Shown piece after piece: positions 891 to 8,281 of a DNA stretch of 39,730 nucleotides. The stretch spans positions 1 to 39,730 of the forward strand of contig JAHDHZ010000005.1 of assembly GCA_020631045.1 (NCBI GenBank), read 5' to 3'. The notes under the pieces were generated by a model, which searched no databases, had not been told where the DNA came from, and saw nothing but the letters and a program-made list of their open reading frames with translations. A program made the translations under genes and the position numbers. The first letter of the stretch is position 1, and each line of letters starts with the position of its first letter. This DNA comes from Flavobacteriales bacterium. GTDB lineage: Bacteria > Bacteroidota > Bacteroidia > Flavobacteriales_G > JALEGO01.

Positions 891-1080
891 CCCCGATAGT
901 AGCGGCATCCTTTTTAAATGAAGTGCCAGTTTGCTTGAGGTTTTAAGGGTGGCGCGATCAGCAAACCCGAAAAAGGCTTAGCAAACTGTGCCTGAGGGGT
1001 AAAAAGATAGAGCGGATAGCGGGAGAGGGTTGGCTAAGCGGAGTTTCGAAGAAATTCGGTTTAGCCGCCCGGGAGCTTAA
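891..1080 (+). ncRNA. Structured leader RNA upstream of acs, Flavo-1-like
   Basis: About 190 bases between a -7 box and the acs start carry conserved-looking signatures: GTAGCGGCATCCTTTTT (899-915) paired at distance with AAAAAGATAGAGCGGATAGC (1001-1020). From memory this resembles the Flavo-1 RNA class of flavobacteria; I could not check a covariance model. Visible pairings are CCCG 892-895 with CGGG 1020-1023, ATCCTTTTT 907-915 with AAAAAGAT 1001-1008 (one bulge), and a nine-base stem 927-935 with 980-988. A 3' domain holds GGCTAA 1032-1037 / TTAGCC 1061-1066 enclosing CGAA-GAAA-TTCG (1047-1058), a GNRA-capped stem. It ends eight bases before acs, so it is either a cis-regulatory 5' UTR or a separate small RNA whose transcript reads on. 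Confidence 0.6.
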
Positions 1081-5362: not shown

Positions 5363-8281
5363 ATGAGAAAGTTATTTTCAACACTGATGTTATGTGTAAG
5401 TTTCTGTGCTTTTATCTCAGCACAAGTTACTGTTTCAGGTCAAATTAAAGACAATCAGTCAGGCGAGCCTCTTTTTGGAACGGCTGTAGTAATTAAAGGC
5501 ACTACTGAAGGTGCTACTACAGACTTTGATGGTAACTTCTCTTTTCAAACCAACCAGCAGTTTCCCTTAACCTTAAGCATCTCATTTGTTGGCTACAACA
5601 CAAAAGAGGTTACATATACTTCAGAGGGGCAAAAACTCAAAATAAATCTAGAAACTACACAAATCAATCTAAAAGAGGTTAAGATTACAGATACAAGGCT
5701 ATCTGATAAGCTTAAAGAGTCGGCTCAAACCATTGAAAGTATGGATTTTGTAGCCATTAAAGAAACACCTTCTGCCGATTTTTATGAAGGATTAGGGCAT
5801 TTAAAGGGGGTGGACGTAACCTCGGCCTCAATTGGTTTTAAAGTGATTAACACAAGAGGGTTTAACTCAACCTCGCCGGTGCGTTCTTTGCAGCTGATTG
5901 ATGGTGTAGACAACCAATCACCAGGCTTAAATTTTTCATTGGGCAACTTCTTAGGGGCCTCAGAATTAGATGTACAGAAAGTAGATTTAGTAGTAGGGGC
6001 AAATGGCGCATTATATGGTCCTAATGCTTTCAATGGAGTGATCAATATGAAAACTAAAGATCCTTTCTTGTTCCCAGGTTTGAGTGTAATGGCAAAAGTG
6101 GGGGAGCGTAACTTAAGAGAAACGGCTTTGCGATATGCTCATGTATTTACCAATAAAGACAGTGTTGAGAAACTAGCGATCAAAGCCAACTTTTATTATA
6201 TGGAAGCGTATGACTGGGAGGCGACCAATCTTGATTCAGTATTTGGTTCTGAGTATGGCCCATCTAACCCAGGTAGATACGATGCAGTGAATAGGTATGG
6301 TGATGAGAACCTTTCTGCCTTTGCCAACAATGAAACAGATATAGCAGGGCGTATTGCTAACCCTGGATTGAACAGATGGTTTAGAAGTGGTTATGAAGAA
6401 AAAGACATTGTTGATTACAATACCAACAACTTAAAAGCAAACCTAGCATTACATTACAAGATTAATCCCAAAACACAGTTCATTGCCTCATCAAATTACG
6501 GTAAGGGTACTACAGTTTACCAGGGAGACAATAGATTTAGCTTAAAAAACATTCAGTTCTTTCAACATCGTTTAGAGGTCAATCAAAAAGATAAATATTT
6601 TGTACGCGCTTATGTGACTCATGAAGATGCAGGAGATTCTTACGATGCGGTATTTACCTCTTTGCTCTTACAAGATGTAGCTAAAGAAGACGCTCGTTGG
6701 TCACAAGATTACATCAACTACTGGTCATCTAACATCACACCTAAAATTGAGGCAATGCCTGGTTTCCCTGATTGGTCTTTTGGTCAAGGACCTTACCCTA
6801 TTGACCAACAAGATGCGTTTATTGCTTCAATTTCTGACTCACTATTTGTCTACCATCAACAAGCACTTGAACATGCAAACACAGCCAATCCATTGTTTCC
6901 CTCGCAAGACTTTCTTCAGCCAGGAACTGCTAGTTTTGATTCAGCATTTCAGTCTATTACATCCAAAAAATCGTTCACCCAAGGCGGCTCAGGATTTTTT
7001 GACAAGTCAGCTCTAGGTCATTTTCAGGCCCAGTACAAGTTTGAACCTCAAAAAGATTCTGTAAAGCTTTTTGATTTAATAGTAGGAGCAAGTTTTAGAG
7101 AATATAGACCAAATTCAAACGGTACAATTTTTAAAGAAACACCGATTTATGACTCCACCCAAATTGATTCAGGGGTTTATCAAATTGATACGAGTTTTAC
7201 CCGCATTAAAAACAGAGAATTTGGAGTATATACAGGTATTGAGAAAAACTTTTTACAAGATGAAAATTTAAAGGTATCAGCTACTGTGAGAATGGATAAA
7301 AATCAAAACTTTGATTACTTATTCTCTCCCGCAGCTTCTTTAGTATACGTACACCAAGACAATCATACGTATCGCTTGAGTTTCTCTTCAGCCATACGTA
7401 ATCCAACCCTAACAGATCAATATTTATTTTACAATGTAGGTAGAGCAATTTTATTGGGTAATATTGATGGAGTAGACTCATTGATTACTACTGAATCTAT
7501 GCTGAATTTCTTTGATAATCTAGATAAAGACTCTCTTGATTATTTTAATGTGGCACCCATCCGCCCAGAAAAAGTAAAGACTATTGAGATAGGCTATAGA
7601 GGCTCATTGGGTTCGAGTGTTTATATTGATGGAAGTTATTATTTTTCATCTTACAAAGACTTTATTGGTTATGAAGTAGGTGTCGATGCAGTATTTAATA
7701 ACGCTGGTACAAATATCCCTTCAAGTATTCAAGCTTATCGAGTGGCATCTAATGCAAAGTCAACTGTTACAACTCAAGGCTTTAGCATTGGTATTAACTA
7801 TTATTTTAAAGACAATTACACGCTACTTTCTAACTATTCATGGAACACTTTGAATAAGAAAGGAACTGATGATCCCATTATTCCAGCATTCAACACACCT
7901 GAGCACAAGTTCAACATTGGTGTGAATGGCAGTGATTTAAAAGTTGGCAATGTAAGAAATCTTGGTTTTGCAGTGAATTATAAATGGGTGCAAGGCTTTT
8001 TGTTTGAAGGCTCTCCTCAATTTACAGGTTTTGTGCCTACTTATGATGCAGTAGATATGCAAATCAATTATGCACCTAAGAAGCTCAAGACGACTTTTAA
8101 GTTAGGTGTCTCTAACTTATTTGGTGTTCGCCCACTTTTTGACAAAGAAATTGGTGGGTTTTCTGACCGTTTAGATCGCGCTTTTAGTAACAGAAACATG
8201 CAGGTGTATGGTGGCCCTTTTGTAGGGCGTATGGCATATGTATCTGTTTTGGTGGAGCTAGGTAAGCTATCTAAAAACTAA
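5363..8281 (+). CDS. TonB-dependent outer-membrane receptor with carboxypeptidase-regulatory-like domain
   Basis: A 972-residue outer-membrane transporter of the SusC/RagA-like style. Residues 1-20 are a signal peptide (MRKLFSTLMLCVSFCAFISA). Next is a carboxypeptidase D regulatory-like domain (VSGQIKDNQSGEPLFGTAVV, DFDGNFSF, SFVGYNTKEV), then a plug domain with RGFNSTSPVRSLQLIDGVD and LVVGANGALYGPNAFNGVI, then the barrel, ending in an aromatic-rich strand (MAYVSVLVELGKLSKN). ATG at 5363 is chosen because it begins the signal peptide; the longer frame starts inside the terminator hairpin. No SusD partner is adjacent. The preceding hydrolase suggests uptake of its product, but the ligand is unknown. 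Expression may be held down by the hairpin just before the start. Confidence 0.93.
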   Translation: MRKLFSTLMLCVSFCAFISAQVTVSGQIKDNQSGEPLFGTAVVIKGTTEGATTDFDGNFSFQTNQQFPLTLSISFVGYNTKEVTYTSEGQKLKINLETTQINLKEVKITDTRLSDKLKESAQTIESMDFVAIKETPSADFYEGLGHLKGVDVTSASIGFKVINTRGFNSTSPVRSLQLIDGVDNQSPGLNFSLGNFLGASELDVQKVDLVVGANGALYGPNAFNGVINMKTKDPFLFPGLSVMAKVGERNLRETALRYAHVFTNKDSVEKLAIKANFYYMEAYDWEATNLDSVFGSEYGPSNPGRYDAVNRYGDENLSAFANNETDIAGRIANPGLNRWFRSGYEEKDIVDYNTNNLKANLALHYKINPKTQFIASSNYGKGTTVYQGDNRFSLKNIQFFQHRLEVNQKDKYFVRAYVTHEDAGDSYDAVFTSLLLQDVAKEDARWSQDYINYWSSNITPKIEAMPGFPDWSFGQGPYPIDQQDAFIASISDSLFVYHQQALEHANTANPLFPSQDFLQPGTASFDSAFQSITSKKSFTQGGSGFFDKSALGHFQAQYKFEPQKDSVKLFDLIVGASFREYRPNSNGTIFKETPIYDSTQIDSGVYQIDTSFTRIKNREFGVYTGIEKNFLQDENLKVSATVRMDKNQNFDYLFSPAASLVYVHQDNHTYRLSFSSAIRNPTLTDQYLFYNVGRAILLGNIDGVDSLITTESMLNFFDNLDKDSLDYFNVAPIRPEKVKTIEIGYRGSLGSSVYIDGSYYFSSYKDFIGYEVGVDAVFNNAGTNIPSSIQAYRVASNAKSTVTTQGFSIGINYYFKDNYTLLSNYSWNTLNKKGTDDPIIPAFNTPEHKFNIGVNGSDLKVGNVRNLGFAVNYKWVQGFLFEGSPQFTGFVPTYDAVDMQINYAPKKLKTTFKLGVSNLFGVRPLFDKEIGGFSDRLDRAFSNRNMQVYGGPFVGRMAYVSVLVELGKLSKN

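Follow-up and report, generated by a model that had tools for sequence, protein, structure and literature searches.

Flavo-1 (Rfam RF01705) was listed by Weinberg in 2010 as a probable RNA that is probably not cis-regulatory (PMC2864571), and since then it has stood in the lists as a likely small RNA with no function assigned. In the transcriptome of Flavobacterium psychrophilum, Flavo-1 matches lie sense or antisense to transcripts, and many of them lie outside transcripts (PMC9723704). The acsA leader of F. psychrophilum is also a structured RNA in front of an acs gene; it was reported without an Rfam hit and so is not Flavo-1, a distinction that is drawn from its description and not from its sequence (PMC9723704). 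The third system for comparison is that of the REP/RAYT (TnpA-REP) repeats, especially those of the Bacteroidota subclass 2.6, which are, like Flavo-1, dispersed, intergenic and hairpin-forming, found in both orientations and equipped with genome-specific loops (PMC6006769). The Y1 genes of this subclass are reported to be flanked by 'atypical secondary structures', copies of which are found elsewhere in the genome (PMC6006769).

We analysed a window of 39,730 nucleotides (the whole stretch of DNA under study) from a Flavobacteriales assembly of 2.34 Mb in 86 contigs, in which a Flavo-1 copy precedes the acetyl-CoA synthetase gene acs. This copy shares with the published Flavo-1 (PMC2864571) a full-length match above the gathering score, the conserved halves and the core pairing, whereas the 83-nt apical insert, the 3' side hairpin and the position in a probable gene leader are additional. 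As Flavo-1 is dispersed in many genomes and in both orientations, we consider it probable (roughly 0.7) that the region upstream of acs belongs to a dispersed element and is not a switch dedicated to acs. The region is one copy of an intergenic Bacteroidota element that folds on one strand into a core stem, a variable apical hairpin and an optional side hairpin. Downstream of the -7 box of acs, it would account, with one stable fold, for the greater part of a leader of about 197 nt, and its effect on acs, if any, would be passive, through the stability of the leader (5'-end protection, distance or translation) and not through ligand switching.

The Flavo-1 copy between the likely promoter box and acs

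The features of the locus are as follows.

880-887, + strand: likely acs promoter box TAAATTTG, which fits the sigma-A -7 box TAnnTTTG of Bacteroidota
885-1030, + strand: Flavo-1 core, subtype A (52.8 bits with RF01705; 59.5 bits with our own model R1)
889-1077, + strand: possible full Flavo-1 unit, from the comparison of copies
889-891 (AGC) and 1075-1077 (GCT), + strand: putative outer arm, a weak pairing of three pairs proposed by analogy with other copies and absent from the lowest-energy fold
892-915, + strand: core stem, 5' strand, from the RF01705 match and the fold; its pairing pattern covaries in 49 copies
916-1000, + strand: extended apical hairpin, inserted in the loop, in a form common to all three Flavo-1 copies of the genome
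927-988, + strand: stem 927-935/980-988, a part of the apical hairpin
951-966, + strand: apical loop GGCGCGATCAGCAAAC
1001-1024, + strand: core stem, 3' strand (AAAAAGATAGAGCGGATAGCGGGA), from the RF01705 match, the fold and covariation
1027-1070, + strand: 3' side hairpin between the core and the outer arm (1027-1030/1067-1070, 1032-1039/1059-1066 and 1041-1047/1051-1057)
1089-2990, + strand: acs, acetyl-CoA synthetase (633 aa; ACAS_N, AMP-binding and AMP-binding_C domains)

The first-pass annotation had noted a resemblance of the conserved halves to the Flavo-1 class, and the covariance model agrees: the RF01705 match has an E-value of 8.5e-9 and a score above the cut-off of 42. At one site, the window copy has an 83-nt insert where the model has 13. 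The window was left out of the building set of R1. The acs protein shares 78% identity with the copy from the same genus, and its relatives are mostly from Bacteroidota, the nearest named ones being Flavobacteriales MAGs.

The box at 880-887 is the sole TAnnTTTG on the + strand between 600 and 1200, a single match being weak evidence as the + strand of the whole window has 36 of them versus 30.6 expected per shuffle. Because the Bacteroidota sigma-A -7 box is placed at -12 to -5 (PMC9723704), transcription of acs would begin at about 892, where the Flavo-1 core stem has its first base. No second TAnnTTTG box is found in the window between the element and the acs ATG, and scans for a sigma-70 promoter and an intrinsic terminator returned nothing. 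Since the promoter box precedes the element, the Flavo-1 copy probably makes up most of the acs leader, and the two are probably on one transcript in this genome. The region as a whole is more structured than its shuffles (z -3.38), in line with the structured RNA that had been proposed between the promoter and acs. On the other side of the box, a DUF1287 gene on the - strand (260-843) is split into two ORFs in different frames, which align with adjoining stretches of the profile (37-163 and 3-36), indicating a frameshift or an assembly error.

The core pairs of the window copy agree with the covariation pattern of the family. The 3' side hairpin is firm as well, the pairs 1032-1039/1059-1066 having an ensemble probability of about 1.0, and similar side hairpins are found in subtype B and in some subtype A copies. 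The sequence CGAA-GAAA-TTCG at 1047-1058, flanked by GGCTAA/TTAGCC, is present as first described; however, its GNRA cap belongs to an alternative fold only, and in the lowest-energy fold the pairs 1041-1047/1051-1057 close a loop of 3 nt.

The first-pass annotation also saw the logic of a two-state RNA in the heptamer AGCAAAC, which indeed occurs at 960-966 and 980-986, each copy being complementary to GTTTGCT at 929-935 and the outer one extending to nine pairs (927-935/980-988). The folding results speak against the switch. When each pairing is forced, the outer gives -71.4 and the inner -61.0 kcal/mol, a difference of 10.4 kcal/mol; in the ensemble, the outer pairs have probabilities of about 0.97-1.00 (0.53 for the last one) and the inner pairs 0.000. 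The motif itself is not above chance: of 5000 dinucleotide shuffles of 891-1080, 366 (7%) have some 7-mer in two copies along with its complement. A third pairing, of 976-982 with 1033-1039, was also tried and is costlier still (-55.5 kcal/mol).

Two further Flavo-1 copies exist in the same genome, L375 on contig C21 (48.4 bits) and L374 on contig C60 (27.3 bits, a partial match). By the translations of the neighbouring genes, L375 appears to be flanked by a lipoprotein-like and a thiC-like gene, and L374 to lie before prfB; a TAAATTTG box is found downstream of L374, ahead of prfB. All three copies fold alike, with a long apical hairpin that has the loop GGNGCRANCAGCAARC. The exact sequence GGNGCRANCAGCAARC occurs three times in the genome, each time inside a Flavo-1 loop, while its one-mismatch occurrences in the genome are without Flavo-1. 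In these three copies with a long insert, the TGCT/AGCA part of the outer pairing is kept and the inner 7-bp pairing is not. Given this shared form, the outer pairing belongs to an apical hairpin specific to the lineage, with the inner AGCAAAC falling mostly in the loop. The window thus holds a genuine Flavo-1 with a lineage-specific apical extension, in which a switch is not demonstrated.

A dispersed family that folds on one strand

By eye, Flavo-1 copies fall into two subtypes, A (TAGCCC ... GGGAnnTAGCT) and B (GCGTTAGGG ... AGCCCGACC-hairpin-GGTAACGCCC). A lack of covariation had been named at the outset as a reason to abandon the structure; the core covaries strongly. Over 49 copies and 15 pairs, 97% of the cells are paired and 11 of the 15 pairs show two-sided change, a covariation score reached by none of 500 shuffles. 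One core pair shows all four Watson-Crick types (64 A-T, 32 T-A, 23 G-C and 6 C-G). In subtype B, the outer arm pairs slightly better with its true partner than with reassigned ones (5.36/6 versus 5.04/6; 0/300), a small margin. Six core pairs contain 17 G-T and no A-C combinations, which indicates that folding takes place on the Flavo-1 strand, as would suit RNA and, less strictly, single-stranded DNA. The wobble lean is weaker in the more variable apical hairpins (88 versus 45).

At a threshold of 1e-5 and with 11 candidates scored per genome, Flavo-1 matches are found in 122 of 396 genomes of the class Bacteroidia, representing 60 of 199 genera. Deeper scoring of four genomes gave 93, 33, 29 and 20 copies. 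The search filters lose copies with long inserts, including those of the window's own genome, so that all copy numbers are lower bounds. The copy number, the two orientations, the wobble polarity and the conserved positions together make it possible to test whether Flavo-1 is an RNA, a single-stranded DNA or a mobile repeat.

For about 120 copies, we examined the surrounding 5 kb. Four are within a called ORF, and the flanking genes of the 112 intergenic ones have, relative to the element, the orientations -- (47), ++ (25), -+ (24) and +- (16), with no fixed sense. Since background pairs of neighbouring genes lean similarly (84 versus 52) and the ORFs were called by length only, we do not claim an antisense preference. 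Copies within 60 nt before a gene are sense in 14 cases and antisense in 30. Among 49 genes that start 3' of an element, 23 have a -7 box between element and gene and 8 have it before the element; the order seen at acs (box, element, gene) therefore occurs at other loci but is a minority. No clear promoter enrichment is seen before the element (7/116, versus 3 to 5 further away). By GC skew, which is noisy as sampled here, no replication-strand bias is seen, the copies of G410 and G211 each splitting 13:13. A consensus-like copy has no match among plasmids and phages. The recurrent neighbours, among the families examined, are housekeeping genes, many of them from corresponding loci across species, and include no transposase. 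Just 5' of many G410 copies (L235, L237, L241, L244, L246, L248 and L250), a TTTTGAAAATGA-like sequence is found outside the Rfam model.

At corresponding loci of different species, side and strand of the element agree in 33 of 40 gene comparisons (7 against), with paired changes, a pattern that speaks more for a function at the locus than for a passive repeat and weighs against the dispersed reading. Corresponding copies are also slightly more similar than random cross-genome pairs (0.758 versus 0.703; 12/2000), and their pairing is retained. This paired persistence points to selection on the structure or to exchange between copies.

How the dispersed element is maintained can be suggested only tentatively. 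Like REP repeats, Flavo-1 may owe its maintenance and spread to a trans factor that recognises its fold; we give this mechanism less than even odds, and the absence of a mobilising enzyme from the fetched surroundings of the copies, one IS200-like gene apart, like that of a replication-strand bias, counts against it and against the dispersed reading in general. It is possible, if somewhat unlikely, that each copy instead functions as an RNA element where it stands, for example as a protein binding site in any transcript that crosses it. The wobble polarity (17:0), the kept positions and orientations and the greater likeness of corresponding copies would fit such a role, whereas copies are antisense to both neighbours no less often than they are sense, many F. 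psychrophilum matches are outside transcripts (PMC9723704) and promoters are not clearly enriched. Flavo-1 might also form a separate class, that of a strand-specific folded element spread through the genome in up to about a hundred copies, whose place and orientation are fixed by paired mutations without a fixed relation to transcription, and of which one copy is now the acs leader in the window's family; we regard this as rather unlikely.

Flavo-1 at the acs loci of relatives

We scanned about 120 acs loci with R1, and the dispersed element is found sense in the acs leader in only two of them, the window and G003. The G003 genome, of another genus in the same family, has a subtype B copy (L114 1294-1439; 24.7 bits, E 1.7e-4), which is weak-scoring but recognisable and folds as a three-way junction. 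This copy sits between a TAAATTTG box (TTAAATTTG) and the acs ATG, matching the place of the window copy, and counts against the dispersed reading. No Flavo-1 is found before acs in G002, of the same genus, or in the family member G001. With four genomes in the family sample, two of which have Flavo-1 in the acs leader, the shared place is suggestive and may be ancestral or coincidental. In Pedobacter psychrophilus (L034), one Flavo-1 lies antisense before acs and a second one behind it; the two copies (2740-2817 and 5699-5786) have opposite orientations on either side of the gene. Weak R1 matches in L102 and L088 are not before acs. An RNA class tied to acs, the lead in the first-pass annotation, finds no support in these loci; Flavo-1 is a dispersed multicopy family.

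We find it quite unlikely that Flavo-1 was recruited in the window's family as a cis-regulatory acs leader acting on mRNA translation or stability. The window and G003 copies, of different subtypes, take the same sense position between box and ATG, with no other box between the element and the ATG in the window, and a structured leader, different in kind and Rfam-negative, precedes acsA in F. psychrophilum (PMC9723704). However, G002, G001 and nearly all of the acs loci scanned are without such a leader, and the other two copies of the window's genome lie before or beside unrelated genes. The acs case carries a caution: when a family is dispersed, a covariance match upstream of a gene does not show that the gene has a leader of that kind.

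Transposases, small RNAs and nested repeats

Compared with the REP/RAYT repeats, Flavo-1 is longer, branched and without an associated transposase among those we searched, and it generally lacks the GT[AG]G foot: the window reads TTTGTAGCCCC at the stem, but most copies have no GTAG there. In the fetched surroundings of the copies, no mobilising enzyme is found, one IS200-like gene apart. That gene (L148 of G001, 1453-1887) lies about 0.4 kb from a Flavo-1 copy (966-1032) that is adjoined by a tRNA gene, and its Y1 protein has a DHVH motif, not the class 2.6 motif.

That Flavo-1 is the REP-type partner of the subclass 2.6 Y1 transposases of Bacteroidota appears improbable, even though the published description of their flanks (PMC6006769) fits and Y1_Tnp occurs slightly more often in Flavo-1 genomes (74/122) than in those without (132/274), a weak association that ignores kinship (p 0.02). 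Y1_Tnp loci carrying the class 2.6 motif have no Flavo-1 beside them, and no Y1 motif is found in about 1.27 Mb of fetched sequence, mostly around Flavo-1 copies; the 1e-12 cut-off for Y1_Tnp may miss class 2.6. Reverse transcriptases (RVT_1) show no association with Flavo-1 genomes (odds 1.12, p 0.71). It is very improbable that the element is a separate small RNA, made from a promoter of its own and terminated ahead of acs: the -7 box exactly before the window's element and the Rfam family type (sRNA) would suit it, but a box right at the element boundary is seen in 1 of 116 other copies, the scan found no intrinsic terminator, and there is no room for a separate acs promoter between the element and the ATG.

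The apical loops of several copies of the dispersed element (L114 1294-1439, L338, L347 and L275) contain other palindromic repeats, CCTGAACTTGTTTCAGGATC-like or CACTTCGACAAGCTCAGTG, as if the Flavo-1 apical loop tolerated nested insertions.
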